Origin: Tetracentron sinense
Taxonomy: Eukaryota > Streptophyta > Magnoliopsida > Trochodendrales > Trochodendraceae
Assembly (NCBI GenBank): GCA_015143295.1
Contig: CM026551.1
Span: 43,016,034 to 43,080,033, forward strand
Direction: 5' to 3'
Length of the DNA stretch: 64,000 bases
Part shown: one piece after another, positions 12,784 through 64,000 of the stretch
Position numbering within the stretch: the stretch's first letter is position 1
Layout: each line of letters opens with the position of its first letter
The notes under the pieces: model-generated
Database searches by the model: none
Told to the model about the DNA's origin: nothing
The model's input: the letters and a program-made list of their open reading frames with translations, nothing else
Position numbers and translations under genes: made by a program

Positions 12784-12965
12784 TTAAGAATACATACATT
12801 GTCACCAGGGGAGGAGCAACATGGGCCAAGGGGCTTCAACTCCTTTAATTTCAAAAAATTATAGTATTAATAGGGGCATAACCTGAGAACAAAGGCGGAG
12901 CCGGGGAATGACAGGCTCTAGCCTCCTAAATATTTGGAAAAAAAATATTCCTTACAAACCGGCAC
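12784..12965. other. Non-coding spacer before Element 1
   Basis: No gene seen. It holds a degenerate repeat with GGCGGAGCCGGGG, distantly echoed on the other strand at 26205-26230. It ends in GGCAC, the target duplication of Element 1. Confidence 0.5.
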
Positions 12966-15195
12966 TGTCACGCCCCAAAATACCCCATAGGAGTTTAGGG
13001 ATATTTTAGATGTGACACTTCGTACCTGCCAAACCATCCTGTAATGCACAAGATAAACACAGTACTAAACAATGATAATCAGAGCGCGGAAGCTAAACAT
13101 AATTTGCGGAAGCAAAAACTAAATTTTTCGTTTCTTTATAATGATCCAAAATGTAGTATTCCAAGTTAACATAAATACAAAACACGCCTAAGTCTAAGGT
13201 GGACAGGCCCACCTATCAAAATACCAAAATACATAAGACCCAACACTTCATCGGTCAATAGCCACCCCCGTGAGGCCAATGGTCTAAGTCTCTCGCCTCC
13301 GCCTGAGGCTCAACTACTAGATCCTCATACGGTTCTTCCTCCCCGTAGTCCTCCTCTATCCAAGGACCCGGATCACATATGTCAAGAGGAGCTCGTGTAC
13401 CTGCCGACATGAAAGTACGGCAGAGCGTGGAATACTCAGCGAGTACAAACTCCTAACCAACAATGGTAATAACGAACAACATCATATACAAGTAATAGAA
13501 TGAGTACAATTCATAATCAATTTCTAACGACATCATACATAAACGTTTTATCAAGTATAATTGTTATGAAACCAAAACACGTCTATGAATCATACGAAAC
13601 CTCTTTGAGTTATCCTTTCAATATTTCTTATGAGCCAGAGGTTAGCACCCGCATATCCCTGTACTACCAACCTCCTTGACAGTACAATATATTTCTTATG
13701 AGCCAGGGGCTAGCACCCGTGTAATCCCTGGGCTACCAACCCCCTTGACAGTACAATATATTTCTTATGAGCCAGGGGTTAGCACCGGTATAATCCCTGG
13801 GCTACCAACCCCCTTGACAGTACAATACCTTTCTTATGAGCCAGAGGTTAGCACCCGCAAAATCCTGGGCTACTAACCTCATTGACATTACCATTTCTTT
13901 TCTTATGAGCCAGAGATTAGCACCCTTAACCGGGGCTACCAACCTCCTTGACAATACTATTTCTTTTCTTATGAGCCAGAGGTTCGCACCCTTAACCGGG
14001 GCTACCAACCTCCTTGACAATATCCTCCATCTGCATATGTGCTCGTGCATAGCAATCGTGAAATCATGATGACATATAGCATTTTAACAATTCCCAACTC
14101 ACATGAGAATTTAAGAAGCGAAATAAACACATGTATACAACTTGCCAAATGGGGAATATTTATGTGACTCATGCTTTCAAATCTTAGTTTATTCATGCAT
14201 TCTATCAAACATGTGGTATTCAACCTTTTTACCTTTAGTTATTTCATATTTTCTCATTCGAACATTTCATCAAACACTTGGGGTGTGTTCATTATGCGTA
14301 ATATGTCATTCCACCATTTTTCCATCATTCAATACATCACAACATGGCATCCAATCGCCTCCACTCCTCATCCATTCCTACATTCCACCCTTTGTTTGTA
14401 TTATCTTGTTTATGTTTTAGGGATTTAGCATATACCAACACAAGGGAGCAATGGGGAAGATCCAACACATATTTACTTAGGAAAATCCTAGGTTATTACC
14501 AAAGTAACTAGGAAGAGTGTACTAACCTTGAAAAGGATAAGAAAAATCCTTGAGGATGATGTAGAAACGCTGCCCTAGCTTGGAAGAGGTACTCCACACG
14601 AGCTTGAGGTTGGATTTGGAGAATCCAAGCCTTTAGAACGGTTCTAGGGTTCTAAAACCCTTGATTCTCTCAAGTGGAAAACCCTAGATGTAAATCCCCC
14701 TTCTCTTCTCTTCTTCTCTCTCAAAACCTTCTAAGTAAGGTGAATGAAGCCCTAAAGGCTCGGGCAAGCCCTTATGAGTAAGGGTTAACACCCAAAAGAC
14801 GAAAACGCCCTTACTAAAAATTCTGCAAAACTCGATAGACCGAGCGATCGGTGCTTATGACCGATCGATCGGTTGCCGACCGAGCGATCGGTGTTATTGA
14901 CCGATCGACCGGTCAAAAACATGTTCTCTGGAAAATTTCCCCATATAAAATTTCTGACCAGTCGATAGCCACCGATCGATCACTGCTCTGCAGGTTCCAC
15001 TATTTTGACCATATCTTTTGACCCGTTCGTCCGATTTTGACGATTCAACTTGCGTTGGATTCGTCTTTCAAAAACGGAAATTTCTGACGTTTCGGAATTT
15101 CCGATTTCTCCCTTATTTATTAATTATACTATGAGGAAGGCCAATTGGTAACGAAAATGCTATTCATTAAAGTTGGAAAAGTCCGGGGTGCTACA
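12966..15195 (-). repeat. Element 1 3' LTR (left), 2230 bp
   Basis: Starts TGTCACGCCC and ends GGGGTGCTACA directly before the polypurine tract. It has six ~68-bp tandem units (13620-14030) and a palindrome array at 14838-14980. About 41 bp present in the other LTR are missing from that array near 14973. Confidence 0.92.
13620..14030. repeat. Tandem array, six ~68-bp units
   Basis: Units contain TTTCTTATGAGCCAG, TTAGCACC and GGGCTACCAACC. They keep an open frame on both strands, which gives several spurious small open frames. The partner LTR has eight units. Confidence 0.9.
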
Positions 15196-15286: not shown

Positions 15287-18200
15287 TTAAACAAATAAAT
15301 GAGGGTACTTTTCTCGTACTTCGGCTTCTCGTTCCCAAGTAGCTTCCTCCCTTGAAAGGTGTTGCCATCTTACCAAGACCAAGGGAACGGTCTTGTTGTG
15401 CAAGACTTGATCTCGCCTATCCAAGATCTGCACCGGTTGTTCATCTAGGGTGAGGTCCTCTCGGATCTCTATCGGATCAAGCTCGATGACATGAGAAGGA
15501 TCCGGGATATACTTCCGAAGCATGGAGATGTGAAATACGTTGTGGATCGCCGCCATGTGAGCGGGCAAGGCAACTCGGTAAGCTACCTCACCAACTCGAG
15601 TAATGATCTCGAACGGATCCACATATCTCGGGCTAAGCTTGCCTCTCTTCCCGAATCGCATAACACCCTTGGTCGGTGAAATCTTGACAAAAACAAAGTC
15701 ACCGACTCGGAATTCAAGATCCCTCCTTCGATTGTCGGCATAGCTCTTCTGTCTATCTTGTGCGGTCTTCAACCTTTCCCGGATGAGCTTGACTCTATCT
15801 GCAGTTTGTTCAATCAACTCGGGGCCCAAAATTTTTCTTTCTCTCACTTCATCCCAATACAACGGGGATCTACAACTCCTTCCGTACAAAGCCTCAAAAG
15901 GTGCCATCTGTATGCTTGCCTAGTAACTATTGTTGTAGGCGAATTCCACTAAAGATAGGTGATCTTCCCAACTTCCCTTGAAGTCCAGCATACATGCACG
16001 GAGCATGTCTTCAATAATCTGATTCACTCGCTCGGTTTGTCCATCCGTCTGAGGATGGAAGGCCGTGCTAAAGTCTAGTCGGGAACCCATGGCATCCTGA
16101 AAACTTTTCCAAAACCTGGATGTGAATCTTGGATCCCGGTCTGAGACAATGCTCACTGGTACTCCATGCAATCGGACTATCTCTTTGATGTACAAGGCAG
16201 CTAACTGATTTGAGTTGAATGTAGTCCGGTACGGTAAGAAATGGGCGGACTTCGTGAGTCTGTCAACAACAACCCATATCGCATCAGTCTTTCTAATGGT
16301 CTTTGGCAACCCCACAATGAAGTCCATAGAGATATGTTCCCATTTCCACTCGGGAATAGGGAGAGACTGCAACAGACCCGCCGGTCTCCTGTGCTCGGCC
16401 TTGACTTGTTGGCACACCAAGCATCGGGATACGTACTCCGCTATTTCTCGCTTCATGTTTCGCCACCAAAAGTGTTCTTCAAGTCCCTATACATCTTGGT
16501 ACCCCCGGGGTGAACGGTGTACTTAGACCGGTGAGCCTCGTACAAGATTTCTCGTTTAAGCTTCTCATCGGTTGGGACACATACTCTTTCCTTGAAAGTG
16601 ATAATTTCATCATCCCTCACCGCAAAATCTTTGCTGCCACTTTTAACTGACTGGTCTCGGCAAGACAGTAGCTCGGCATCCATTCCCTGCAACTCCCTCG
16701 TCATGCTCAGGATATATGGCCTAACTGTGATATTAGCCATTACTGGCCCAAAAGTAGGGAGACTAAAACTGATGTCGAGGTTGGATGCATCTTCTAACAA
16801 CCTCCATTCCCTAAACATCATGTGCGCCAAAAGTCCAGTGGGCTTCCGGCTAAGAGCATCGGCTACAACGTTCGCCATGCCCGAATGATATTGAATGGAA
16901 CATTCGTAGTCTTTCAAAAACTCTACCCATCTCCTCTGCCTTAAATTCAATTCCTTTTGGGAGAACAGGTACTTCAAGCTTTTATGATCCGTGAATACGT
17001 CGAACTGTTCCCCATAGAGATAATGTCGCCAAATCTTCAAGGCAAACACAACTGCGGCGAGCTCTAAATCGTGAGTGGGATAATTCTTCTCATGCTCTTT
17101 CAATTGCCTGGAGGCGTTAGCAATGACTTTGCCGTGCTGCATAAGTACACATCCCAACCCCACATGCAAGGCATCACTGTAAACCACAAAACCACAACTC
17201 CCGGATGGCACAGTAAGGACGGGGGCCGTGGTGAGGCGTTTCTTCAACTCCTAAAAGCTCACTTCGCATTTGTCGCTCCAACTAAACTTGGCATTCTTCC
17301 TCGTCAAGTAAGTGAGAGGTGCAGCCAAACTGGAGAATCCCTCCACAAATCTCCGATAGTAGCCTGCCAGCCCAAGAAAACTACGTATCTCCGTGACGCT
17401 CTTGGGTCTCTCCCATCTTATAACTGCCTCTATCTTTGCTGGGTCAACAGAAATGCCCTCAGCCGACACTACGTGGCCTAGGAATGCCACCTTCTCCAAC
17501 CAAAATTCGCACTTGCTTAACTTAGCGTATAGCCTATGCTCTCTCAACATCTCCAGAGCAAGACGAAGGTCTCGTGCGTGATCTTCCCGTGTCTGGGAAT
17601 ACACTAAAATTTCATCTATGAACACAATCACACATCAATCCAAGTACGATCGGAACACCCGGTTCATCAAATCCATGAACGCCGCCGGTGCATTCGTCAG
17701 CCCAAAAGGCATGACAAGGAACTCGTAGTGCCCATACCGAGTCTTGAAAGCCGACTTCGGAACATCTTCCGCCTTGATCTTTAACTGATGATACCCCGAT
17801 CTAAGATCAATCTTGGAGAAAAATCTCGCTCCCTTCAGTTGGTCGAACAAGTCGTCTATCCGAGGCAAAGGATAACGATTCTTAATAGTCACCTTGTTCA
17901 ACTGCCGATAATCTATGCACATTCTCATTGACCCGTCTTTCTTTTTCACAAAGAGGACCGGAGCTCCCCATGGTGACACACTTGGTCGGATGAAACCAAG
18001 TTGTTGCAGCTCCTCAATTTGCTTCTTCAATTCTTCAAGCTCTATTGGGGCCATTCTATACGGCGCCCTTGAAATCGGAGTGGTGCCTGGAGTAAGCTCT
18101 ATAGCGAACTCAATCTCCCGATCTGGAGGCAATCCGGAAAGTTCCTCTGGAAACATATCCAAGAACTCACTCACGACCGGGATGACCGAGGAGTTTTGTG

Positions 18201-18617
18201 CTTCTGGGTTTACTAAGCTCAAAGCTGCGAGGCGAGCAATGTCTCTTTCCCTCAACCCTCGAAAGTGAAATGGCTTAACTCCCATCGGCTCGAAGTTCAC
18301 CATCTTCTCGAAACATGCCACATGTCCGTGGTGAGCCGATAGCCAATCTATACCGAGTATAACATCGAAATCTAAGTCTTGGAAGTCCAGGATGATGAGG
18401 TCGGCTAACAACTCATTCTGTCCCACTTGGACTACACAGTCCCTGTATATACGGTCCGTGTCCACCGACTTGCCAAGCGGTGTGGAGATGGTCAATTCAT
18501 GCTTCAACTGACTGGACTTGGTTGAAAATCCTTTCGCAAAGCTAGGCGATACAAAGGAATGAGTGGATCCTGTGTCAATCAACACTCGGGCTAGGCATTC
18601 ATTCACTAATAACGCGC
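15287..18617 (-). pseudogene. pol: Element 1 pol: protease-RT-RNase H-integrase-chromodomain, broken
   Basis: Protease DTGSTHSF lies near 18560. Reverse transcriptase runs from about 18230 to 17480, with [11 protein letters not shown] and [10 protein letters not shown]. The catalytic box reads FIDE (17611-17622) instead of the family's F(I/V)DD. RNase H covers about 17250-16850. The integrase core (16400-15980) keeps [17 protein letters not shown] and QTERVN, and the tail ends EEATWEREAEVREKYPHLF. Breaks: TGA at 17635-17637, TAG at 17251-17253, a one-base deletion near 16474, and TAG at 15920-15922; the frame ends at 15287. The first stop fits CGA to TGA and the last CAG to TAG. The start is set by the putative splice acceptor at 18618, not by an ATG. 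Non-functional as it stands. Confidence 0.92.
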
Positions 18618-18753
18618 CTGTGTGATTAATTAAATTCACGTTAATAGATTTCACACAATAACACATAAGTATAGGTAGTATGTCATACATATAAGCAATC
18701 ACATCACATAATAGAAGCCAATTACAACTCAAAACTTTAGCATGATAGCATAC
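18618..18753 (-). other. Putative spliceosomal intron, 136 bp, between gag and protease
   Basis: The minus-strand donor CAAG|GTATGC and acceptor TCACACAG|GCGCG bound an AT-rich interval with a branch-like TATTAAC about 30 nt before the AG. Splicing joins VVQ-G to ALLVNE in one frame. Without splicing the Gag frame meets TAA at 18737-18739. The length is not a multiple of three. Element 2 has the same structure at the equivalent codon (32584-32726). Inferred from sequence only, with no transcript evidence. Confidence 0.7.
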
Positions 18754-19989
18754 CTTGCACGACATCGTCAGATGCACGTGCATCCCGTTCCGATAAGGCA
18801 AAGACCTGCCCCTGGTCTGCCCTGCGAGGCGGTGGAGTGGATAACGTGGGTCGTGAAGGCCTAGACGCAGAAGCCTGTGAGGATCCCGGCTAGGACTCCT
18901 GTCGAACTGGGGGCCTACTCCCCTGGGGTTGGATAGGCTGTAGCTGCCTGCGTGGGCAATCCCTGACCATGTGATTCACATCTCCAAAGTGAAAGCACCC
19001 ACCCGAAATCCTCCGATATTCACCAATCCAGTGACTCCGACCACAATAGGAGCACTCCTCAAATGCTGATGAGGATGAAGGTGGAACATATCGGGTGGCC
19101 TGTGAAAGTGTGGGACGAGGTACCGGTGTAGTGGTAGGCCGAGATACTTGTGATGTCAAGGGAGGCCTCTGTGACCGTATCGGCTTGGATGCTTGATATG
19201 GGGCTGCCCTAGCCCTCTTCTCTGCCGACCCCGAACTACTCAATTGGCCTCGAGCCACATCCCTTCTCTTGAAGAATTCTTCCGAATTCTTCTCGGCAAG
19301 CTTCGCCTTGCTCATAACCTCTCCCCAAGTAGCCACCTGGAATATCGAGACCCTGTCTCTAATGGAGGGTTTCAATCCCCGCTCAAATTTCCTGACTCGC
19401 ATATGCTCCGATGCAATTAGGTGAGGTGCGAATCTCGAAAACTCCACGAAGGTAGCCTCATAATCGCCACACTCAACTCTCCTTGTTCAAGAGTCATGAA
19501 TTCAATCTCCTTCTGTTCTTTGACAGCCGCCGGAAAATACTGTTTATAGAAGACATCCAAAAATTCCGACCATGTCCACAGCTCCCCCGCCCTGGTGGAC
19601 TCCCTCTGTCTCTGTGCGGCTCTCTACCAATGCTCAGCCGCACCTTCCATCACGAAGGTGACCCAGTCCACTCTCTGTTCATCCGTGCAGTGGAGCGCTC
19701 TAAAAATCTTTTCCAATTGCATCACTCATGCCTCGGCGACCATGGGGTCAGTAGTACCGAATAAGGTAGGAGGACGCAATCTCCTAAATGCCTCCAATCT
19801 TTAAGCATGGTGTGCCGGAGGTGGCGGAGGCGTAGAAGGAGTAACAGCAACCGGCCTTGCTGCTAACATAGCCAAAGTCTCGGCTATAGATGCAAAAGCT
19901 TGGGCAAAATCGGGTTGCTCGTCACCGAAAGGGGCATCACTTCCACTTCCCCTCGTATTGTATCCACGACCCCGAGCACCGCGTCTCAT
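18754..19989 (-). pseudogene. gag: Element 1 gag, broken
   Basis: Nucleocapsid precursor. It starts at an ATG (19989) giving MRRGARGRG, aligned to MRGGTRGRG of Element 2. A Retrotrans_gag-type core follows, then a basic Pro/Ser-rich linker and a C-terminal zinc-knuckle region. The knuckle reads [14 protein letters not shown]: the second cysteine of CX2CX4HX4C is Phe, so metal binding would be lost. In-frame stops stand at 19801-19803, 19726-19728 (a Trp position) and 19624-19626. A one-base loss lies near 19463, and a TAG at 18890-18892. The downstream part (18890-19447) is open. Not functional; recognisable only by comparison with Element 2. Confidence 0.85.
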
Positions 19990-20310: not shown

Positions 20311-20322
20311 GCTCTGATACCA
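20311..20322 (-). other. Element 1 primer binding site (tRNA-iMet)
   Basis: TGGTATCAGAGC on the minus strand, four bases inside the 5' LTR, is complementary to the 3' end of plant initiator tRNA-Met. Confidence 0.92.
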
Positions 20323-20326
20323 CATC

Positions 20327-22732
20327 TGTCATGCCCTAAAATACCCCCTAGGAGTTTAGGGATATTTTAGATGTGACACTTTGTACCTGCCAAACCATCC
20401 TGTAATGCACAAGATAAACACAGTACTAAACAATGATAATCAGAGTGCGGAAGCTAAACATAATTTGCAGAAGCAAAAACTAAATTTTTCTTTTCTTTAT
20501 AATGATCCAAAATATAGTATTCCAAGTTAACATAAATACAAAACACGCCTAAGTCTAAGGTGGACAGGCCCACCTATCAAAATACCAAAATACATAAGAC
20601 CCAACACTTCCTCGGTCAATAGCCACCCCCGTGGGGCCAATGGTCTAAGTCTCTCGCCTCCGCCTGAGGCTAAACTACTAGATCCTCATACGGTTCTTCC
20701 TCCCCGTAGTCCTCCTCTATCCAAGGACCCGGATCACATATGTCAAGAGGAGCTCGTGTACCTGCCGACATGAAAGTACGGCTGAGCGTGGAATACTCAG
20801 CGAGTACAAACTCCTAACCAACAATGGTAATAACGAACAACGTCATATACAAGTAATAGGAGTACAATTCATAATCAATTTCTAACGACATCATACATAA
20901 ACGTTTTATCAAGTATAATTGTTATGAAACCAAAACACGTCTATGAATCATACGAAACTTCTTTGAGTTATCCTTTCAATATTTCTTATGAGCCAGAGGT
21001 TAGCACCTGCATATCCCTGGGCTACCAACCTCCTTGACAGTACAATATATTTCTTATGAGCCAGGGGCTAACACCCGTGTAATCCCTGGGCTACCAACCC
21101 CCTTGACAGTACAATATATTTCTTATGAGCCAGGGGCTAGCACCCGTGTAATCCCTGGGCTACCAACCCCCTTGACAGTACAATATATTTCTTATGAGCC
21201 AGGGGTTAGCACCCGTATAATCCCTGGGCTACCAACCCCCTTGACAGTACAATATATTTCTTATGAGCCAAGGGTTAGCACCCGTATAATCCCTGGGCTA
21301 CCAACCCCCTTGACAGTACAATACCTTTCTTATGAGCCAGAGGTCAGCACCCGCAAAATCCTAGGCTACTAACCTCCTTGACAATACCATTTCTTTTCTT
21401 ATAAGTCAGAGGTTAGCACCCTTAACCGGGGCTACCAACCTCCTTGACAATACCATTTCTTTTCTTATGAGCTAGAGGTTAGCACCCTTAACCGGGGCTA
21501 CCAACCTCCTTGACAATATCCTCCATCTGCATATGTGCTCGTGCATAGCAATCGTGAAATCATGATGACATATAGCATTTTAACAATTCCCAACTCACAT
21601 GAGAATTTAAGAAGCGAAATAAACACATGTATACAACTTGCCAAATGTGGAACATTTATGTGACTCATGCTTTCAAATCTTAGTTTATTCATGCATTCTA
21701 TCAAACATGTGGTATTCAACCTTTTTACCTTTAGTTATTTCATATTTTCTCATTCGAACATTTCATCAAACACTTGGGGTGTGTTCATTATGCGTAATAT
21801 GCCATTCCACCATTTTTCCATCATTCAATACATCACAACATGGCATCCAATCGCCTCCACTCCTCATCCATTCCTACATTCCACCCTTTGTTTGTATTAT
21901 CTTGTTTATGTTTTAGGGATTTAGCATATACCAACACAAGGGAGCAATGGGGAAGATCCAACACATATTTACTTAGGAAAATCCTAGGTTATTACCAAAG
22001 TAACTAGAAAGAGTGTACTAACCTTGAAAAGGGAAAGAAAAATCCTTGAGGATGATGTAGAAACGCTGCCCTAGCTTGGAAGAGGTACTCCACACGAGCT
22101 TGAGGTTGGATTTGGAGAATCCAAGCCTTTAGAACGGTTCTAGGGTTCTAAAACCCTTGATTCTCTCAAGTGGAAAACCCTAGATGTAAATCTCCCTTCT
22201 CTTCTCTTCTTCTCTCTCAAAACCTTCTAAGTGAGGTGAATGAAGCCCTAAAGGCTCGGGCAAGCCCTTATGGGTAAGGGTTAACACCCAAAAGATGAAA
22301 ACGCTCTTACTAAAAATTCTGCAAAACTCGATAGACCGAGCGATCGGTGCTTATGACCGATCGATCGGTTGCCGACCGAGCGATCGGTGTTATTGACCGA
22401 TCGACCGGTCAAAAACATGCTCTCTAAAAAATTTCCCCATATAAAATTTCTGACCAGTCGATAGCCACCAATCGATCGGTTTTGGACCGATCGATCGCTG
22501 ATGAGGACCGAATCGATCGGTGCTCTGCAGGTTCCACTATTTTGATCATATCTTTTGATTCGTTTGTCCGATTTTGACGATTCAACTTGCGTTGGATTCG
22601 TCTTTCGAAAACGGACATTTCTGACGTTTCAGAATTTCCGATATCTCCCTTATTTATTAATTATACTATGAGGAATACCAATTGGTAACGAAAATGCTAT
22701 TCATTAAAGTTGGAAAAGTCCGGGGTGCTACA
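20327..22732 (-). repeat. Element 1 5' LTR (right), 2406 bp
   Basis: Starts TGTCATGCCC and ends GGGGTGCTACA. It has eight ~68-bp tandem units (20980-21520) and a full palindrome array (22335-22523). As the 5' LTR on the minus strand it would drive transcription. The conserved GCTGAGTATTCC motif (minus strand) lies at about 20790-20802. Confidence 0.92.
20980..21520. repeat. Tandem array, eight ~68-bp units
   Basis: Same unit as 13620-14030 with two more copies. The 112-residue open frame here is repeat translation, not a protein gene. Confidence 0.9.
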
Positions 22733-26924: not shown

Positions 26925-26946
26925 TTTTTAGGGTTAGAGCCATTTT

Positions 26947-29175
26947 TGTCGCGACCCAAAACCCACCCTAAGAGTTAGACCCCTAAGAGTTAGAGTGAAC
27001 TTTGGACAACTAATCATGACTTACATGACTTGCTAGACAAACCATCCTGCAAAAACCCACAGAGCATATACAAAGAGGATATAAACAGCGGAAACATACT
27101 TAAACATAGCACAGCGGAAGACTTAACCAAACCTCTATGTATATACATAAGTGATCTAGTTACACAAAAGGAGTCCAAAAGAAAGTGCGGACAGGACCGC
27201 AAAAATGCATGGATATACATCTCTCAACTCACCCACAGCTCTATCACTCAGAATCTACAACCACTACCTAATAGTAGCCCTCTACCAGAGGTTCCTCCAA
27301 AAGTTCCTCAACGTACTCCTCCTCCACCCATGGGCCAGGAGCACAGACATCAAAAGGAGCAGCCGCTCCGCTATCACCTGCTGACATAAGAAGTACGGAT
27401 GAGCATGGAATACTCAGCGGGTACCAAATACTAACCAATAGTCATAGCATAAAAATGGCAATACATAAATCAGGAGCAATTCATATATGTTAAACGGGAA
27501 CAATTCATGTCATACAAGGAAGTAAAGCAATTTATAATCATGCTTGCATTTCGTAAAAAGCCGATAAAACCTCTTGAAATCATTGTGTGCTTGACTTGAT
27601 TTGAAATATCTTTTTCGTACTTGAAAGCTTGTCATGTTTGTCTTGCTTGATCTTGTCAAGCGTGTCGTACGTGTCATGTCATGCCATGCGTGTCAAGCGT
27701 GCTTGCTTGTGAGATACACTTGTGAGATATCCTTGTGAGATGCACTTGAGAGGGAAGGGAGACCCTTCTTTATGCAATGCACTTGAGAGGGAAGAGAGAC
27801 CCTTCTTTATGAGATGTACTTGAGAGGGAAGGGAGACCCTTCTTTATGCAATGCACTTGTGAGTGAGGGGAGTCCCCTCGTGGTATGTTTGTTCTTATTT
27901 TCTTGTGAAAAGCGAGGTAAAACATATCGTAGGATATGTCCCACCTCTAAACCTCATTCTTGAAAGTACCGATAAACCATGTCATGCATGCCGTGCTCGT
28001 GGAATCGTGTGCATACTTGCATTTGAAATTTAAGATGACATTTGAGGATTTTAACAACACATAGCATATCACAATTTCAGCAAATAATGAATTACACCAT
28101 TTAAGGAATGTAAGAAACACACTATCATAAGTCCTAGCAATTTCATGAATATTTAAGCATGCATTCTTCTTTTCAATTTATCCTTCATTTTATTCACCTT
28201 GGCATTTCATCAAACATAGGGTGTGTTCATTATTTATTTAAGCCTAAATCATGTTTTTTCTAGGTGGGTTCATATTCACTACACGCTTGTGTGTTTATTA
28301 TTGGTACAATACCCTTCCCCTTTTTACTCATCACATCATTCGCACGGCATCCAATCGCCAATTCTATCTCCATTCATAACATCCACACATCCCAACTCAT
28401 GGCACATGTATAGATGAAGGAAAACAAAGAATAATAAAGGAAAAGAGGAACTATAACTAGGAGGGTAGCAAAAGGTACCTACCTTGACAAATGAGGAAAA
28501 GAATCTCCTTCCAAAACATCCGTGAGTAGCTGCCCTAGCTTGGAGAAACTGCTCATCGCGTGCTTGAACCGAATTCTTGAAGCAATCCAAGCTTGAGGTG
28601 ATCTAGGGTTCACAAACCCTTTGATTTCTTCTCAAAAATCAAACCCTAGGTTTAGAAATCTCCTTTTCTTCTCTCTTCCTCTCTAATATCTTCTAAGTGT
28701 GGTAAATGAGCCCTAAAGGCTCGGGCAATCCTATATAGGAAAGGGTTTAACGCCCAAAAGATGAAAACGCCCTTAATGAAATTCTGCAAAAACCCGAAGA
28801 CCGAGCGATCGGTGTTTATGACTGATTGATCGGTTGCCTACCGAGCGATCGGTGTGTTGATCGAGCTCTCGATCAAAAATCAGCTCTCTGAAAAATTTCC
28901 TCATACAAAATTTTCCACCAGTCGATAGCCTCCGATCGATCGGTTTTGGACCGAGCGATCGATGGTCTGTAGGTCCAAACTGCTTTGGCCATATCTTTTG
29001 ACTCGTTCGCTGGATTTTGATGATTCAACTTGCGTTGGGTTCGTACTTCGAAAATGAACATTTCTAACATTTCGGAATTTTCAATTTCTTCCTTATTTAT
29101 TAATCGTACTACATTAAAGCTAAATTGGCTACGAAAGTGCCATGCATTAAGCATGAAAAAGTCTGGGGCTCTACA
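26947..29175 (-). repeat. Element 2 3' LTR (left), 2229 bp
   Basis: Starts TGTCGCGACC and ends GGGGCTCTACA. It includes a ~39-bp tandem array (27735-27860, core GAGAGGGAAGGGAGACCC), a palindrome array (28799-28968) and CTATATAG (TATA) near 28731. The first 50 bp hold an extra small duplication of AAGAGTTAGA not in the other LTR. Confidence 0.92.
27735..27860. repeat. ~39-bp tandem repeat in Element 2 LTR
   Basis: Three and a half copies of a unit with CACTTGAGAGGGAAGGGAGA. The partner array lies at 35107-35235. Confidence 0.85.
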
Positions 29176-32200: not shown

Positions 32201-32583
32201 AAAACGGGCAATATCTCTACTTCTCAACCCCCGAAAATGAAATGGCTTGCCTTCCACTGGCCGGAAGAGTACCATCTTTTCAAAACAAGCCACATGCCCA
32301 TGATGTGTTGCTAACCAATCCATTCCCAAGATGACGTCGAAGTCTTGAAATCCAAGGATGATTAGATCAACCGCCAATTCGTGACTCCCCACTTGAACTA
32401 CACTATTTCTACACACTTTATCTGCCACTACTGTCTTGCCGAGAGGAGTCGAAATGGCCAACTCCTGTTCTAGCTGACTAGGCTCCACAGAAAAGCCTTC
32501 TGAAAAACTCGGTGAGACAAACGAATGAGTAGACCCGGTATCAATCAACACTCGAGCCAAACATTCATTGACTAGTAAGGTTC
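29258..32583 (-). pseudogene. pol: Element 2 pol: protease-RT-RNase H-integrase-chromodomain, broken
   Basis: Protease DTGSTHSF lies near 32540. Reverse transcriptase runs from about 32100 to 31450, with an intact FVDD box near 31580. RNase H runs from about 31280 to 30780. The integrase zinc region starts near 30450, and its core has [17 protein letters not shown] and QTERVN, all three acidic positions kept. The tail carries a GPF-like SPRYVSPF stretch and NVFHVSMLRKY. Breaks: TGA at 31895-31897, a one-base loss near 31290, TGA at 30396-30398, TAG at 30177-30179, and an extra base near 29395 that shifts the chromodomain out of frame. The inherited frame would end at 29258. The stops fit CGA to TGA or CAG to TAG changes. 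Confidence 0.92.
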
Positions 32584-32726
32584 CTGAAATTTTAGCTAGC
32601 TCGGTCAATCCATGCATCAACATCCTATATATAGGTAAATAGATATATATAGCACGCCACATACGTACACAAGGAGTAAAGCATAACATGATAATCGCGG
32701 ATAAAAGAATAACTCTAAACGCGTAC
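32584..32726 (-). other. Putative spliceosomal intron, 143 bp, between gag and protease
   Basis: The minus-strand donor CAAG|GTACGC and acceptor AATTTCAG|GAACC bound an AT-rich interval. TTGAC about 25 nt before the AG could be the branch site. Splicing joins VVQ-G to TLLVNE in frame. Read through, the Gag frame ends at TGA 32617-32619 inside the interval. It occupies the same codon (phase 1, after the first base of Gly) as in Element 1, although the intron sequences share little. Confidence 0.72.
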
Positions 32727-33974
32727 CTTGCACCACATCATCAGATGCAAGTGCATCACCCTCTGTCAAGGTAAAAACTCGCCCCTGGTTCACCTGGCGA
32801 GGCGAAGGTGTAGACCGGGTAGTCTGGGATGACACCTGGTATGATCCTGCTGGGCATGCTGGGGGCCTAATCCCCTGAGACTGGTCTGGTAAATGCCGAC
32901 GGGGCAATCCTTGATCACATGGCCCTGGCGACCACAATGAAAACATCCACCCGATGCCCTTCGGCAATCTCCTGCCGGGTGTCTTCAACCGCACGAAGTG
33001 CAGACCTCGTGTGTATAGGTCGGAGGGGCCGGAGGTGGAGCATACCTCACCGTCTGAGGTTCAACTGGCCATGGAGCTGGAAGAGCCTGAGGATGTGGTG
33101 CCTGAGGCACGAACGACCGTGGAGCTGGAGGCGCATAAGATGGCCTCGTCGGTGGTGCTGGCCACGTGTACTGATAAGGGCCGTTACGAGCTCGCCTCTC
33201 TGGAGGTACTGAACTACTGGCTTGGCCTCTCGCCAACTCCCTCTTCTTGGTCACGGCCTCGTAATTCGCCTCGACCAATAAGGCTTTGTCTACTACCTCA
33301 GGGTAGGTAGCATGTCTGAAAACCGAAACCTTCTCCATGATAACATCTTTGAGCCCTTGCTCAAACCTTCTTGCCTTCATTGCCTCGCTAGCAATCATGT
33401 GTGTCGCGAAGCGTGATAGTTCTGAGAACTTGGCTTCATACTGAGCCACCGACATCGAGCCCTGCTCAAGGTTAATGAACTCCCTCTCTTTCTTTTCCTG
33501 AGTTCCAACCGGGAAGTACTTTTTATAAAAAGTATCCTTGAACTCCTCCCAAGTCCAAGGTTGACCCTGCATGGTCAAATCTCGCGTCCTCAATGCGGAC
33601 AACCACCAATGGTGGGCCTCACCCTCTAGCATGAAAACAGCCCATGCTACTTTCTCTTCCTCTGCCGGAGAGACAACCGCAAATATCTTCTCCACTTGGA
33701 GGATCCAAGCCTCCACAGCAAGAGGGTCCACACTCCCATGGAATGATGGAGGCCTTAATCTCCTGAATGCCTCGACCCCAGCTGTACGATGTACTGGAGC
33801 CGTAGGCGATGGAGTAGGTGCCGCCGATGACGGTATAGTTTGCTGAGCCGCCAGGATGGTAAGAGTCTCAACAATAGAGCCTAAGACCTGAGAGAGGTCC
33901 GGCTGCTCAAACTCATCTCTAAAAGAAGATGAAGCTCTAGTATGTGGTCCACGACCCCGTGTGCCCCCTCTCAT
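32727..33974 (-). pseudogene. gag: Element 2 gag, nearly intact N-terminal part
   Basis: Structural protein of the retrotransposon particle. From the ATG at 33974, 329 codons are open. An Arg/Gly-rich N-terminus is followed by a Retrotrans_gag core (EAFRRLRPPSFHG, AVEAWILQVEKIF, HHWWLSALR, TWEEFKDTFYKKYFP, LEQGSMSVAQYEAKF). A Pro-rich linker and a first Cys motif CTSCG come next. A TGA at 32985-32987 stops the frame just before the zinc knuckle. The knuckle itself is intact in the DNA (CFHCGRQGHVIKDC, CX2CX4HX4C). A one-base loss near 32911 moves the last part, ending DALASDDVVQ, into another frame. This is the better reference of the two gag copies in the window. Confidence 0.9.
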
Positions 33975-34313
33975 GACTAAGGTCCTGAGAACAATAGCAC
34001 CACATGAGTCTCACTTGAAAACACAATTTATCACAGTTCTATTTCACAATAATTCAATTTGTATTAGTTTTATAATACTAATATTCATCGCATCACAACC
34101 CTCGGTGTATTTATAATATTATACCTTGGTGTTCTAGTGTTTCTAGACACGCACTTGGTCGGAGCAACCATTTTGGACTAAGACTAAAGTTTAGTCTCGC
34201 ACTTGGAATCATGACTCGCTTCCGACTTAATTCCTTCCTAACTTGTTCCGGGCATATGCTCTTGTCAAGCCGTGCTATTAAATTCTAAGTGACCCTAGAG
34301 ACCTAAAGCCTAA

Positions 34314-34325
34314 GCTCTGATACCA
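34314..34325 (-). other. Element 2 primer binding site (tRNA-iMet)
   Basis: TGGTATCAGAGC on the minus strand, four bases inside the 5' LTR. Confidence 0.92.
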
Positions 34326-34329
34326 CTTC

Positions 34330-36560
34330 TGTCGCGACCCAAAACCCACCATAGGAGTTAGAGTGAACTTTGGACGACTAATCATGACTTACATGACTTG
34401 CTAGACATACCATCCTGCAAAAACCCACAGAGCATATACAAAGAGGATATTAACAGCGGAAACATACTTAAACATAGCACAGCGGAAGACTTAACCAAAC
34501 CTCTATGTATATACATAAGTGATCTAGTTACACAAAAGGAGTCCAAAAGAAAGTGCGGACAGGCCCGCGAAAATGCATGGATAAACATCTCTCAACTCAC
34601 CCACAGCTCTATCACTCAGAATCTACAACCACTACCTAATAGTAGCCCTCTACCGGAGGTTCCTCCAAAGGTTCCTCGACGTACTCCTCCTCCACCCATG
34701 GGCCAGGAGCACAGACATCAAAAGAAGCAGCCGCTCCGCTATCACCTGCCGACATAAGAAGTACGACTAAGCATGGAATACTCAGCGGGTACCAAATACT
34801 AACCAATAGTCATAGCATAAAAATGGCAATACATAAATCAGAAGCAATTCATATATGTTAAACGGGAACAATTCATGTCATACAAGGAAGTAAAGCAATT
34901 TATAATTATGCTTGCATTTCGTAAAAAGCCGATAAAACCTTTTGAAATCATTGTGTGCTTGACTTGACTTGAAATATCATTTTCGTACTTGAAAGCTTGT
35001 CATGTTTGTCTTGCTTGATCTTGTCGAGCGTGTCGTACGTGTCATGTCATGCCATGCGTATCAAGCGTGCTTGCTTGTGAGATACACTTGTGAGATATCC
35101 TTGTGAGATGCACTTGAGAGGGAAGGGAGACCCTTCTTTATGCAATGCACTTGAGAGGGAAGGGAGACCATTCTTTATGAGATGTACTTGAGAGGGAAGG
35201 GAGACCCTTCTTTATGCAATGCACTTGTGAGTGAGGGGAGCCCCCTCGTGGTATGTTTGTTCTTGTTTTCTTGTGAAAAGCGAGGTAAAACATATCGTAG
35301 GATATGTCCCACCTCTAAACCTCGTTCTTGAAAGTACCGATAAACCATGTCATGCATACCGTGCTCGTGGAATCGTGTTCATACTTGCATTTGAAATTTA
35401 AGATGACATTTGAGGATTTTAACAACACATAGCATATCACAATTTAAGCAAATAATGAATTACACCATTTAAGGAATGTAAGAAATACACTATCATAAGT
35501 CCTAGCAATTTCATGAATATTTAAGCATGCATTCTTCTTTTCAATTTATCCTTCATTTTATTCACCTAGGCATTTCATCAAACATAGGGTGTGTTCATTA
35601 TTTATTTAAGCCTAACATGTTTTTTCTAGGTGGGTTCATATTCACTACACCCTTGTGTGTTTATTATTGGTATAATACCCTTCCCCTTTTTACTCATCAC
35701 ATCATTCGCACGGCATCCAATCGCCAATTTCATCTCCATTCATAACATCCACACATCCCAACTCATGGCACATGTATAGATGAAGAAAACAAAGAATAAT
35801 AAAGGAAAAGAGGAACTATAACTAGGAGGGTAGCAAAAGGTACCTACCTTGACAAATGAGGGAAAGAATCTCCTTCCAAAACGTCTGTGAGTAGCTGCCC
35901 TAGCTTGGAGAAACTGCTCCTCGCGTGCTTGAACCGAAATCTTGAAGCAATTCAAGCTTGAGGTGATCTAGGGTTCACAAACCCTTTGATTTCTTCTCAA
36001 AAATCAAACCCTAGGTTTAGAAATCTCCTTTTCTTATCTCTTCCTCTCTAATATCTTCTAAGTGTGGTAAATGAGCCCTAAAGGCTCGGGCAATCCTATA
36101 TAGGAAAGGGTTTAATGCCCAAAAGACGAAAATGCCCTCAATGAAATTCTGCAAAAACGCGAAGACCGAGCGATCGGTGTTTATGACGGATCGATCGGTT
36201 GCCTACCGAGCGATCGGTGTGTTGACCGAGCTCTCGATCAAAAATCAGCTCTCTGGAAAATTTTCCCATACAAAATTTTTCACTAGTCGATAGCCTCCGA
36301 TCGATCGGTTTTGGACCAATCGATCGCTCCATGGACCGAGCAATCGGTGGTCTACAGGTCCAAATTGTTTTGGCCATATCTTTTGACTCGTTCGCCGGAT
36401 TTTGACGATTCAACTTGCGTTGGGTTCGTACTTCGAAAATGAACATTTCTAACATTTCAGAATTTTCCATTTCTTCCTTATTTATTAATCGTACTACATT
36501 AAAGAAAAATTGGCTATGAAAGTACCATGCATTAAGCATGAAAAAATCTGGGGCTCTACA
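34330..36560 (-). repeat. Element 2 5' LTR (right), 2231 bp
   Basis: Starts TGTCGCGACC and ends GGGGCTCTACA. It carries the ~39-bp array (35107-35235), the palindrome array (36164-36350) and a TATA-like CTATATAG at 36096-36103. This copy would act as promoter for the minus-strand transcript. Confidence 0.92.
36096..36103 (-). promoter_or_regulatory. TATA box of Element 2 5' LTR
   Basis: CTATATAG, a self-complementary TATA-like site. It lies downstream of the palindrome array in transcription direction and upstream of the tandem array. Confidence 0.4.
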
Positions 36561-40564: not shown

Positions 40565-41141
40565 CGCGGTTACTTGTATATGTCTAAAGTCTTTAGTTTT
40601 GTACATTGGTAACTTGGAATACAGTTGGTATATATAAAAGAAAAAATTTTGTTACACTTCCGTTACGATATTCCTTGTATATTGCATAGGTTGGTTCATC
40701 ATCGTAAGCACCCTATTTTACACCCCTAGCTAACCATGGTTAAGTCTCTTAACCATGGCAATTCCCCAGCCAAGACCCCTTTAAACCTAGGTCTTACCCT
40801 ACCAAACCCTAGGATTGAACCCTAGATAAGCCCCAATCATAGTTAAACCTAGGCCTAACCCTAGGTAAACCCTAGCCTAGCCCTAGCCAAGCCCTAGCCT
40901 AGCCCTAACCGACCCTAGCCCAAGCCTAGCCAAGCCCTAGTAAGCCCTGGGCCATTAGGGCTTAACCCCAAGCCCAAAAAAATCCTAAGATATCAAAGCC
41001 TCGGTTTAGGCCCAAGCAAGGGCCCAAAAATTTTTAAATCCCAACCAAGTACCGCATGCCTGCATGGGCCATGAGCCCTATGGGCAAACACCATTTTGGG
41101 CGGTAATCCCTTTCACCGACAGCCCATTGTTTCAAATCTTT

Positions 41142-41174
41142 GGGAATGTCGGTAAATACATTACCGACATTCCC
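41142..41174. repeat. Stem-loop in Element 3 LTR, 14-bp arms
   Basis: GGGAATGTCGGTAA, loop ATACA, then the exact reverse complement. It is the first of five similar CGGT/ACCG stem-loops; the others lie near 41796-41824, 41990-42016, 42200-42219 and 42243-42272. Confidence 0.85.
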
Positions 41175-41329
41175 AGTATCTTCTTCTTGCTGCACAACCA
41201 CCCTATCCTGCACACTCCACCACCGTCCACTGTACACCAACTCCTCCAGGGGTGTAGGCACACTCCTGCTCACCCCCTTACCTCCTCAGACCTTCTCTAG
41301 TAATCCCCAACAGGTCCCCTAAGCTTCCC

Positions 41330-41336
41330 TATAAAT
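41330..41336 (+). promoter_or_regulatory. TATA box of Element 3 5' LTR
   Basis: TATAAAT in CCCTATAAATGGC. The same box lies at 57611-57617 in the right LTR. Confidence 0.55.
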
Positions 41337-43559
41337 GGCAGCCACCCCCTTGGCCAAAAACTCACTCCACAATCCCTACTCCGAACCACTATTCGACTCA
41401 CAAATCAAGGCCCCCTCCAAGCTTCAGGAATCCTCAAAGATCACCCTTAGCCTCTCCCCTCACCCCTGTGCAGCACCACCATGAGCCACCAAGCTCCACC
41501 ACCTCCGCCAGTAGCTCCACCGTCCTCACAACGTGCAGCAGGGTAGGGCATCCCCCTACCCACCTTTTCCTTGTTTTTTTATTTACTATTGTGAGCCCCT
41601 GGTCCGTCCAGGGGTGTTTCCATTTTGGTTTTGCAGTCCCCCATCTTCATCATAGGTGTAGGGAACCCCCAAGGGGTACAACACCACTTCGACCAGCCTC
41701 AGAGCTTTCTAGGGGTCCCCCACATCATGGGGAAACTCCTGGTATGGCCCTCGTAGCAGCCCCATAGGGTTGTGTTAATTTTCTAAAAATTTGCAGGGTG
41801 TCGGTAAACACAGTGCCGACACCCCTATAGCTTTCTGTTCCTGGGCTTATAGGCTCCACCTAGTGCCACCCTGGTCTAATCCAGGGCATGGCTTTTATCC
41901 CTGAGACCTCTTGGAGCTCAAACTAAGCTTTACAGCCCTTGACTATCATCCTAACTATGGTTAATTTGTAGATCAAAAGAAATTGTCAGAGTGTCGGTGG
42001 ACTGATTACCGACACTGTCATTTTATGTGCACTGAGTTTGGGCCCACACCAGGCCCACACACAGCATCCCCTAGGGCCCACAGCAGGTCCAAGGCATTCT
42101 CCTCATCCTAAGATTTACAAGCATGGGTCATGGACCCCCTAACTCCACCCCTAACCATAGTTACAGGGGGTACAAACCTTGGTTAAAAATACTGAAATTG
42201 GCGGTGAAGCATTCATCGCCATTCTGGTTTTGTGAATAATCTGAATTGACAGTAAAGCATTCACCGCCAATTCCAATTTGGCAATGTTTTGGGCTTTACA
42301 ATGAGCCCAGCCCTGGGGAGACCTCTACCAGCCTCGACATAGCCCCTGGGGCCCACCCTAAGCCTGCCCAGGCCTTGCCCTTGCCTTAACCGTGGTTAAC
42401 TCAACCATGGTTAAAGAGTTAACCACAGTTAATTCATCAAACTTCTTAGAAAAATTTTAAAAAATCTTAGAAAATCCAAAATATTCTAAAACTTTGGAAA
42501 ATGTGACTCTTGGACTGTGTGCTCATACCTAACCACTGTTAAATGGGTTTAACCATGGTTAACTTTTGGTTTGACCATGGTTATGCCCATTTAAACCTTG
42601 GAAAAATTCTGAAAAATCATAAAAAATCTCAAATGGTAGTATAATTCCAAATTTGACTTTGTACACTGCCTAACCTTGGTTATCCGGACTAACCATAGTT
42701 AAACCCATGTCTTAACCATGGTTAGCCCCATTTAACTTGGCAAATTTGGGAAAAAGCTCCAAAAAATGTCCAAATCACATTTAAGGACCATAATCATACC
42801 TTGGACCTTGCCCAACCCCGGTTAGAAATCATAACCATGGTTAAACTCCTCTTGGCCTATCGAGCCTTCCTCTAAGCTTACCGGGCTTACCCTTGACCTA
42901 CCGGACCCAACTCAAAGCCTAGCGGGCTTATCCTTGGCCTACCGAGCCTAATCTTGGCCCACCAAGCCCAATCCTTAGTCTACTAGACTAAACCCTAGCC
43001 TCCGGGCTTGCATCCAAGGCCTATCGGGCCTAATCTTGGCCTACCGGGCCCAAACCCTAATCTATCGGACTACCCTTTAGCCTGCTGGACCCAATCAAAC
43101 ATAGTCAAACATTTGACCAACCCGGTCAATCACCCCTAGCCTCCCGGCTAGACCCTAAGCCACCCTTGGTGCACACACAACACTCTCCTAACCTTGGCAT
43201 GGGCTCATGTGCCAGAACTACGCTCAATCTAATCTCAGCCCAATGTGAGTACGTAGGCAACCTAACACGGATTCGAACCTAGTTTAGCTTTTTCCTTCTT
43301 GGATTAGTATAAACTAAACATAAGGCATTTGACTAATAATTGACATTAATTTGACTTAAACCTACAAGTAGGGAACCGTTGTAAAACGGAAGTGTCGGGG
43401 TGCCTAGCACCTTCCCTGGGCTTAACCGAACCTTTTACTCAGAACTCTAAGCTAACCAAGACCTTATCCATTACTTGGGACTTATCCCTACCGAATCAAT
43501 AAGTGGCGACTCTGAACATAACCACAAATGTGGGTAACCGAAATTCGTGCTCAGAGCTC

Positions 43560-52039: not shown

Positions 52040-52560
52040 TCTTTAAGCTTCTCCGGAAGAACACGCCTATAGTCTGGACAAACTAGTGTCAGAAAGCCTT
52101 TGACAGAATAAAGAAATACCTGCTCAATCCTTTAGTACTTGTGCCTCCTACACCAGGATGGCCCCTACTACTCTACATCTCAGTGCAAGAAACCTCCATA
52201 GGGTGTGTCCTAGCATAGCATGACGAGACAGGCAGAACAGAGCAAGCTATCTACTAAATTAGCAAACGCCTGCTAGAGTATAAAGAGAGGTACAACCCTC
52301 TTGAGAAGACATGTCTGGCACTAGTCTGAGCAACTCAGCGTCTTCGGCATTATCTGCTTTCCTACCCGATAATTCTGATCTCCCAGATAAACCCGCTCAA
52401 ATACTTACTAGAAAAGCTAGCCACCACCGGAAGAATTGCCCGATGGCTTATGATGCCGTCTCAATTCGACATCACGTACATGACACAGAAATCAGTTAAG
52501 GAGCAGGCGATAGCAGATCACTTGGCCTACAGTCCAGTAGAGGACTACGTCTCAATACGA
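52040..52560 (+). pseudogene. Element 3 RNase H (gypsy type), broken
   Basis: Frames with KAFDRIKKYLLNPLVLVPP, LLLYISVQETSIGCVLA and KRLLEYKERYNPLEKTCLAL are gypsy RNase H hallmarks. Several in-frame TAG codons interrupt them (near 52085, 52217, 52255 and 52327). KYLLEKLATTGRIARWLM marks the end of the domain. Confidence 0.8.
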
Positions 52561-52606
52561 TCAGTTTCCTGACAAGGCCATCCTGTACACAGAAGCAGAA
52601 GAGCAA

Positions 52607-53026
52607 GAGTACTCCGACTGGGAGTTATACTTTGACGGAGCTGCCAACAGTCAAGGGCACGGGGCAGGAGCAGTCCTGATCTTACCCAAGGGAGCACACC
52701 TCCCCATCTCAGTCAAGTTGAAATTCAGATGCTCCAACAATGAAGCTGAATACGAGGCATCCATAGCCGGTCTGAAAGAAGCCCCGGGCATCAGGATTGA
52801 AGAGATAGACGTCTACGGTGACTCGTCTTTGGTAATCTATCAAGCAAACGAATCATGGGTCATCCGAGGAGCAAGGCTAGTCCCGTACTTAACCTATTTT
52901 AACATGCTGATCACTCAGTCCAGAAGAATCACCTTCAGCCACAAGTCCAAGAACCACAATAGGTTTGCCGATGCACTGGCCACCCTCGCCTCCATGATTC
53001 AAATCCCTAAGGGCATCATGCTCTAG
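52607..53026 (+). CDS. Element 3 archaeal-type RNase H domain, open
   Basis: The second RNase H found only in the Tat clade, thought to have been acquired in addition to the gypsy enzyme. The frame is open from about 52607 to the stop at 53024-53026. ELYFDGAANSQGHGAGAVLI carries the first Asp, NNEAEYEASIAGL the Glu, VYGDSSLVI the second Asp, and NRFADALATLASM the last Asp. All four catalytic acids are present. This makes it the best preserved domain in the element, although it is embedded in a broken polyprotein and cannot be made in its native context. Confidence 0.85.
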   Translation, partial: EYSDWELYFDGAANSQGHGAGAVLILPKGAHLPISVKLKFRCSNNEAEYEASIAGLKEAPGIRIEEIDVYGDSSLVIYQANESWVIRGARLVPYLTYFNMLITQSRRITFSHKSKNHNRFADALATLASMIQIPKGIML

Positions 53027-63004: not shown

Positions 63005-63199
63005 CTACTGGAATAGTTTAGTTGTTTCATTCAAGAGATTAAGACTGAGTTATTTTTATTCAAACATTCATAACAACATCTTTACTGATCCTCACTTGTT
63101 CTGTGTTGCAGGTACCAAATTGCTTGAATTAAAAACCAGTGCGCTACTATTACAAGAGCTATCATAAATTCCAACTACCGAAAGCACTGTAAGTATTCT
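63005..63199 (+). other. Leader remnant of the Athila-like element
   Basis: About 200 bp of leader-like sequence, then an abrupt switch to Tekay-type RT near 63200. The Athila-like element is therefore truncated. Confidence 0.5.
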
Positions 63200-63723
63200 C
63201 TCATCTGGTACGGGCACTACGAGCTCCTTGTCATGCCTTTTGGATTGACGAATACACCGGCGGCATTCATGGACTTGATGAACCGGGTGTTCAGACCTTG
63301 TCTCGATCAATGTGTCATAGTATTCATCGACGACATCTTGGTGTATTTCCAGACACGGGAAGATCATGATCGAGACCTTCACCTTACTTTTGAGACACTT
63401 CAAGAGCATAGACTATATGCCAAGTTGAGTAAGTACAAATTTTGGTTGAAGAAAGTGTCGTTTCTTGGCCATGTAGTATCCACGGAGGGTATTTCGATTG
63501 ATCCGGCAAAGATAAAGGTAGTGATGAGCTGGGAGAGACCCAAGAGTGTTATAGAGATACGTAGCTTCCTTGGTTTAGCAGGCTACTATCGAATAATTGT
63601 AGAGGGATTCTCCAGTTTAGTGGCACCGCTCACATATCTTACGCGGAAGAATGCCAAGTTTGTTTGGAGTGAAAAGTACGAGAATAGCTTCATGGAGTTA
63701 AAGAAGTGGCTCACTACAGCTCC
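63200..63723 (+). pseudogene. pol: Tekay-type reverse transcriptase fragment
   Basis: RT from the palm onward: [15 protein letters not shown], an intact FIDDILVY catalytic box (about 63320), [25 protein letters not shown] and [14 protein letters not shown]. It breaks off at LTTAP, where an LTR begins. The rest of RNase H, integrase and the polypurine tract are absent. N-terminal RT, protease and gag are absent too. Confidence 0.88.
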
Positions 63724-64000
63724 TGTAGCACCCCGGACTTTTTCATCTTTAATGAAAAAGCACCTTCGTAGCTAATTGGCCGTTTTTGTAGTCTAATTAA
63801 TAAATAAAAGAGAAATCGGAAATTTCGAAATATCAGAAATGTACGTTTTCGAAAGACGAACCCAACGCAAGTTGAATCGTCAAAATCCGACGAGCGAGTC
63901 AAAAGATATGGTCAAAACAGTCCAGACATACAGAGCACCGATCGCTCGGTCCAGTCAGCGATCGATCGGTCCATAACCGATCGATCGGTAGCTATCGCAC
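63724..64000 (+). repeat. Tekay-type LTR, cut by window end
   Basis: Starts TGTAGCACCCCGG and carries the conserved CCAACGCAAGTTGAATCG block and a palindrome array (63936-64000) of CGATCGATCGG type. It is closest by eye to the LTRs of Element 1 read in reverse. It continues beyond the window. Confidence 0.85.

Follow-up and report, generated by a model that had tools for sequence, protein, structure and literature searches.

A probable spliceosomal intron between gag and protease in two chromovirus families of Tetracentron sinense

Two Ty3-gypsy elements, E1 and E2, lie on the minus strand of the window, that is, the whole stretch of 64,000 nucleotides of Tetracentron sinense DNA that was analysed, and in each of them a short interval parts the end of gag from the protease. 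This raises the question whether the interval is an intron whose removal joins the two frames, a spacer that is never spliced, or a site at which ribosomes change frame.

Two elements and the interval at their gag-protease junction

Window coordinates are used as first given; those of both intervals were found to be correct, and both intervals lie on the minus strand. The features are as follows.

12965..15195, minus strand: 3' LTR of E1 (approximate), repeated in the 5' LTR
15290..15919, minus strand: C-terminus of the E1 integrase, SH3_Tf2-1 and Chromo (Pfam)
17644..17949, minus strand: start of the E1 reverse transcriptase (RVT_1, Pfam), in the frame of the protease
18316..18617, minus strand: start of the E1 downstream exon, aspartic protease RVP_2 with DTGSTHSF; the second whole codon is profile position 26
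18618..18753, minus strand: E1 interval, probable spliceosomal intron of 136 nt, phase 1, GTATGC...CACACAG
18754..18889, minus strand: tail of the E1 upstream exon, end of Gag; the split Gly codon begins with its last base
20311..20322, minus strand: putative E1 primer binding site, tRNA-iMet-like, motif match beside the 5' LTR
20326..22732, minus strand: 5' LTR of E1 (approximate), repeated at 12965-15195
26940..29175, minus strand: 3' LTR of E2 (approximate), repeated in the 5' LTR
32282..32583, minus strand: start of the E2 downstream exon, aspartic protease RVP_2; the first whole codon is profile position 25
32584..32726, minus strand: E2 interval, probable spliceosomal intron of 143 nt, phase 1, GTACGC...ATTTCAG
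32727..33027, minus strand: tail of the E2 upstream exon, end of Gag (...GDALASDDVVQ); the last 22 whole codons weakly resemble RVP_2 2-23
32988..34010, minus strand: E2 gag (Retrotrans_gag and Ty3_capsid, Pfam)
34314..34325, minus strand: putative E2 primer binding site, tRNA-iMet-like, motif match beside the 5' LTR
34323..36560, minus strand: 5' LTR of E2 (approximate), 95% identical to 26940-29175

Pfam scanning along the minus strand revealed protease, reverse transcriptase, RNase H and integrase parts in that order in E1 and E2, and gag domains were found in E2. The protease and the start of the reverse transcriptase share one reading frame in E1, as judged from Pfam matches. The C-terminus of the E1 integrase contains a chromodomain (E 1.4e-06). 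In E2 the zinc-binding and SH3 parts of the integrase were matched; Pfam gave no match for its integrase core and none for a chromodomain in the piece scanned. The two LTRs of an element are about 94-95% alike (95% in E2), and the motifs at 20311-20322 and 34314-34325 are presumably tRNA-iMet-like primer sites. The E1 chromodomain and the tRNA-Met-like primer sites support a plant chromovirus type. Both E1 LTRs also carry 69-bp tandem repeats (13586-14023 and 20944-21519), apparently in different copy numbers. Elsewhere in the window, a segment of about 2.8 kb occurs in two diverged copies that are 84-92% alike (40767-43553 and 57056-59773), and the open reading frames 41258-41764 and 57224-58066, one in each copy, gave no match in the Pfam scan. 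The plus-strand open reading frames 52541-53023 and 63128-63772 gave RNase H-like (RVT_3) and reverse transcriptase (RVT_1) matches and probably belong to other retroelements.

The two intervals interrupt the same codon in the same phase. The E1 edges read CAAG/GTATGC...CACACAG/GC and the E2 edges CAAG/GTACGC...ATTTCAG/GA, so that the shared codon of VVQ-G reported in the initial annotation is borne out, with CAAG/GTAYGC donors, CAG/G acceptors and phase 1 in both. Both intervals are AT-rich, having a GC content of 29% (E1) and 36% (E2) versus 45-60% in the 120-nt flanks, and T accounts for 42% and 40% of their letters, respectively, and for about 42% over the copies. Of 40 E1-type intervals, including a truncated one, 37 have the branch-like motif YTNAY, which is frequent by chance, with its A 23 nt before the end; in 62 of 73 E2-type intervals the A of this motif lies 21 nt before the end. 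The interiors have little sequence in common: alignments of E1 with E2 are hardly better than those of shuffled letters, 37 of 1000 shuffles being equally good when the ends are included and 129 of 1000 for the interior alone. In the flanking exons, E1 and E2 have the same letter at 66 of 90 ungapped sites on one side and at 68 of 90 on the other. Neither pairwise nor profile alignment of E1-type with E2-type intervals gave a convincing sign of homology; the profile control used fewer distinct shuffles in one direction.

Joining the interval edges restores one frame, and the protease profile runs across the joint. In E2 the downstream part begins at RVP_2 position 25 (E 4e-30), and the upstream tail aligns with positions 2-23 (E 0.19, weak by itself and obtained for a 30-residue piece only). 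Therefore, the split glycine falls on position 24, with nothing missing or extra. Neither the E1 exon-1 tail nor a longer E2 tail gave a Pfam match.

The interval in the host genome and its reading frames

The host genome (1.16 Gb) was searched with queries spanning the junction, which contain the interval and favour copies carrying it, and with queries of exon 2 only, which are blind to the interval and reach only the nearest 40 places per family. With the E1 junction query, 28 copies were read (L001 being E1 itself) from the 40 best of 3081 first-look candidates; GT was kept in 28 of 28 and AG in 26 of 28, and the length was 136 nt in 27 copies and 137 nt in one. The best 40 places of the E2 junction query gave 30 read copies (L029 being E2 itself) with GT in 29, AG in all 30 and lengths of 141-148 nt. 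Among the best 40 places of the E1 exon-2-only query, 29 were also junction-query places and 10 of the 11 others carry the interval, shortened to 98 nt in one and 135 nt long in another, while in the remaining place (L114) only the interval 3' end was recognised. For E2 the blind query found the interval in 38 of its best 40 places (35 newly read, plus E2, L050 and L057), missing in L067 and L076; the 35 newly read intervals measure 127-149 nt, with GT in 35 and AG in 33. A further 15 places (L089-L103), which came from the closed-junction search described below, yielded one E1-like interval (L089, 135 nt) and eight E2-like intervals (136-149 nt), all nine being GT...AG; five places were devoid of the interval and L091 was unreadable.

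Taken together, GT and AG are present in 39 and 37 of 39 E1-type intervals and in 72 and 71 of 73 E2-type intervals, resulting in 111 and 108 of the 112 carriers with both ends read. These counts leave out L091, the upstream side of which was not recognised, and L114, and they include L098, whose interval 3' end (1 of the 73 E2-type) was placed by looking for its expected letters. Behind the first acceptor of L098 stands a second downstream-exon-like stretch, resembling a local duplication. The interval is 135-149 nt long in nearly all copies read, and the donor GTACGC is present in both types, namely in the E2 type, in the E1-like L089 and in 6 of 28 E1-type copies. In the E2 alignment the commonest letter has a mean frequency of 0.86 per column, with 0.99 and 1.0 at the GT columns and 0.89 and 0.88 at the last two; the splice-site columns rise only moderately over this background, and raw GT/AG counts were used instead because gaps blur the 3' end and lower the last two values. 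The conservation of the splice sites is partly due to recent common descent, E1-type copies differing by 1-2%. Scoring of GT/AG ends and of a continuous frame, a test set beforehand, was carried out on copies of both families and did not refute an intron.

Reading through the interval gives no single frame, in agreement with the initial annotation, as the Gag frame stops within 28 of 28 E1-type and 29 of 30 E2-type intervals. Counted from the split codon, the stop follows after 5 residues in all 28 E1-type copies and after 4 to 44 residues in 29 E2-type copies; in the thirtieth the frame runs for 55 residues, past the interval. Unspliced RNA would thus add to Gag a tail of the split glycine and 4 residues in E1, and of the split glycine and 7 or 33 residues in 23 of 30 E2-type copies. 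The lengths of 136 nt (1 modulo 3) and 143 nt (2 modulo 3) imply that one frameshift cannot serve both elements, and the E2-type lengths alone fall into all three residues (36, 21 and 16 copies for residues 1, 2 and 0), which fits neither a spacer that codes nor a single fixed frameshift. A programmed frameshift, bypass or re-initiation over a spacer, giving Gag-Pol, would agree with the change of frame between Gag and protease, which many retroelements have, and with the lack of protease-frame stops in the E1 interval of 25 of 28 copies. However, a protease-frame stop lies within the interval in 26 of 30 E2-type copies, leaving 4 open, and relatives without the stretch have one frame at the junction. 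Frameshifting was rejected on the interval lengths modulo 3, and we regard the whole class of recoding explanations as extremely improbable. The stop-free E1 interval is non-coding in look, and its 25 open copies of 28 are near-identical; about 2% of shuffles are open.

Divergence patterns give a less clear answer. When 29 E2-type copies were compared with L029, the interval had 40 gap events and the 180 nt downstream of it had 3; the 180 nt upstream had 31, indicating that the Gag linker also varies freely. By codon position, divergence in the downstream exon is 0.075, 0.062 and 0.118, with the excess expected at third positions; the upstream 180 nt shows none (0.072, 0.058 and 0.058), and divergence by phase within the interval is uneven (0.087, 0.077 and 0.123). 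Codon-position divergence does not cleanly favour the intron reading. Small samples and shared descent may account for these misfits and for the open protease frame of E1, and are the only explanation that we can offer.

Copies without the interval and their history

A degenerate pattern of 29 places for the closed junction, with up to 3 mismatches, had 102 matches in the host genome versus 2 for the reversed control. Thirty-five closed loci were read, 30 from a first set and 5 from the 15 places L089-L103, and each shows a single frame at the junction codon, reading V(V/M)Q-G-(T/A/S)LLVNECLA or close variants; most of the other ten of these 15 places are acceptor-side matches in intron-bearing copies. 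Ten of the first 30 loci have no stop in about 60 codons before and 99 after the junction, and several distinct families are represented. The 35 loci were picked by the closed-junction pattern and demonstrate the existence of such copies, not the precision of the absences. In the blind exon-2 samples only two complete absences were found (L067 and L076), besides two intervals shortened to 98 and 127 nt. Intronless E2-like copies recur (L077, L081 and L103), the exon-2 start AACCCTACTAGTCAATGAGTA occurring at at least 20 places among the matches listed, of which one, L103, was read.

The recurrence of intronless copies at many places means that the intron is dispensable and that splicing is not essential. 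The interval had been called conserved in Tekay-type elements, which is too wide, since copies without it occur in related families of this genome; the further claim of selected splicing finds no support as worded, given the same recurring intronless members. The intron is not general, and the copies sampled from sister families are without the interval.

The recurring intronless copies also bear on the possibility that the interval is a non-coding insertion or a decayed spacer between gag and pol that was inherited from a common ancestor and is never spliced, with intronless copies doing the work and carriers being passengers helped in trans. Stops near the junction in many intron-bearing copies and the missing third-position excess of the upstream flank would fit such a spacer as well. 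Against it, the intervals of the two families are unalignable and yet occupy the same codon and phase with the same GT/AG ends, GT and AG persist in the 112 copies as counted above, the protease and Gag-tail frames adjoin the interval in most carriers read, and exactly the GT..AG stretch is missing in relatives. We consider a never-spliced spacer very unlikely. The kept position and GT/AG ends, the length free modulo 3, the T-richness and the copies lacking exactly the GT..AG stretch argue instead for splicing: the interval is, with high probability, a short U2-type spliceosomal intron between gag and protease-pol in two related plant chromovirus families; the spliced RNA would code for Gag-Pol and the unspliced RNA for Gag.

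To place the intronless copies, trees were built from 900 nt of the downstream exon (88 copies, the intronless rows chosen by pattern) and from 600 nt of the upstream exon (55 copies, namely 30 E2-type, 22 intronless and 3 of the 28 E1-type, with 8 distant ones dropped). In the exon-2 tree the E1-type copies are grouped in a single clade (100/100), and the neighbours sampled around it have no intron, the nearest being L069, L073, L075, L084 and L086. The E2-type copies are not one clade. Seven intronless copies (L064, L067, L070, L071, L076, L077 and L081) fall within the intron-bearing E2 group, and further intronless copies lie outside it. The exon-1 tree likewise places L064, L076, L070/071 with L072, and L077/081 among intron-bearing copies, with L067 at an open fork. 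Nesting of intronless copies by both flanks is the outcome expected of reverse-transcribed spliced RNA.

The intronless copies of the E2 group might instead have arisen only by ordinary deletion or by recombination (template switching) with families that have no intron. Over the first 45 nt of exon 2, behind an E2-type upstream exon, L070, L071 and L072 carry letters like those of the outgroups, and L072 is inside the intron-bearing group by exon 1 and outside by exon 2; these mosaics suggest that intron-bearing and intronless elements have recombined. In addition, the donor and acceptor have the letters AGG or AG in common, and an ordinary deletion between these short repeats, which permit precision, could yield an identical closed junction. 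In contrast, L064, L067, L076 and L077 have E2-type letters right at the junction on both sides (L081 nearly so), and L064, L076 and L077, but not L067, are nested by exon 1 also. Junction letters and both trees together suggest that some absences are true losses and some recombination. Recombination or deletion as the sole source is in our judgement rather unlikely; it is compatible with a true intron, and its likelihood overlaps with that of the intron reading.

The same trees bear on how often the intron arose. Two independent gains at the same codon (site CAAG/G), one in the E1 and one in the E2 family, would be a sub-case of the intron reading with overlapping likelihood, and would agree with the intronless state of the nearest sampled E1 relatives and of the sampled E2 outgroups, and with the lack of homology detected by the profile between the two interval types. 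However, the donor GTACGC occurs in both types, many of the absences can be losses, as losses are likely, and pattern-chosen intronless rows cannot date a gain. Two gains thus seem possible though not favoured, and one old gain with later losses is the likelier and the simplest history. It is a still bolder suggestion, and in our view an unlikely one, that one plant chromovirus lineage acquired a splicing switch between Gag and Gag-Pol two or more times at this codon and repeatedly lost it via reverse-transcribed spliced RNA. If it were true, one genome with matched intron-bearing and intronless families would be a natural experiment on the worth of the switch.

Proposed role of splicing and known systems

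For the probable intron we propose the following course of expression. The unspliced full-length RNA would be translated into Gag with a short tail. It would also be the genome that is usually reverse-transcribed in both families, since nearly all copies of the blind samples keep the interval. Removal of the interval by the host spliceosome would fuse the Gag and Pro-Pol frames into a Gag-Pro-RT-IN polyprotein, and partial splicing would set the ratio of Gag to Gag-Pol. Spliced RNA may occasionally be reverse-transcribed, leaving an intronless copy. The sequences suggest that RNA splicing governs the amount of enzyme produced by the element.

To our knowledge, it is poorly understood how Gag comes to exceed Pol in plant Ty3-gypsy elements with a single polyprotein. 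A gag/protease intron would offer a testable answer for one chromovirus group, with close intronless relatives in the same genome as a control, and individual copies could be used to trace how an intron is lost by reverse transcription. There is also a warning for annotation, in that such elements will be called frame-broken at the junction though splicing may restore the frame.

No relatives were found among the viral contigs scanned. In the literature covered, which takes in few subscription journals, no intron at a gag/protease junction was found, and one may already be in print; the consulted part of a Retand survey has nothing on such an intron (PMC11963269), and in that of a beet chromovirus paper, Tekay included, the word intron occurs once, for a host gene (PMC3605345). 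Most plant LTR element groups are described as coding their polyprotein in a single ORF (PMC6317226, relevant section), and the corresponding part of a 2025 review holds that plant LTR elements are generally without introns, with Ogre and EVADE as exceptions (PMC12786077). Like Tekay/Del chromoviruses such as Bongo of beet, E1 and E2 have long LTRs (about 2.5-3 kb in Bongo), and E1 has a chromodomain, which in those chromoviruses precedes the polypurine tract (PMC3605345, in part); E1 and E2 differ from them in the single-ORF polyprotein typical of most plant LTR groups (same section of PMC6317226).

Ogre, CRR and Bagy2 are named as spliced in PMC3735527. BARE1 itself, a Ty1-copia element, has a facultative intron of 104 nt at the end of gag (PMC3735527). 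Similar to E1 and E2, this is a short U-rich intron at the gag/pol border, and splicing sets Gag versus Gag-Pol; the logic is opposite, however, as splicing in BARE1 makes a stop after Gag (PMC3735527), whereas the spliced RNA of E1 and E2 would code for Gag-Pol. RNAs of two sunflower copia elements are spliced into short Gag forms, according to the part of PMC7730604 consulted. In Bianca, also Ty1-copia, two ORFs are split by a region averaging 172 bp, for which a regulatory strategy was suggested; it differs in superfamily, and the section concerned cites no splicing evidence (PMC6317226). Ogre is similar in plan: an intron between protease and reverse transcriptase is spliced in part of the transcripts (PMC6317226), so that an intron separates polyprotein parts of a plant Ty3-gypsy element, gag-pro and RT-RH-INT in that case. 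Ogre belongs to the Tat lineage and is a non-chromovirus, and its interval averages 274 bp, whereas in the chromodomain elements E1 and E2 the interval lies before the protease and the Ogre-type position was not encountered. A splicing intron in plant LTR elements is already known from the protease/RT position of Ogre; E1 and E2 would place one at the gag/protease junction of a chromovirus.
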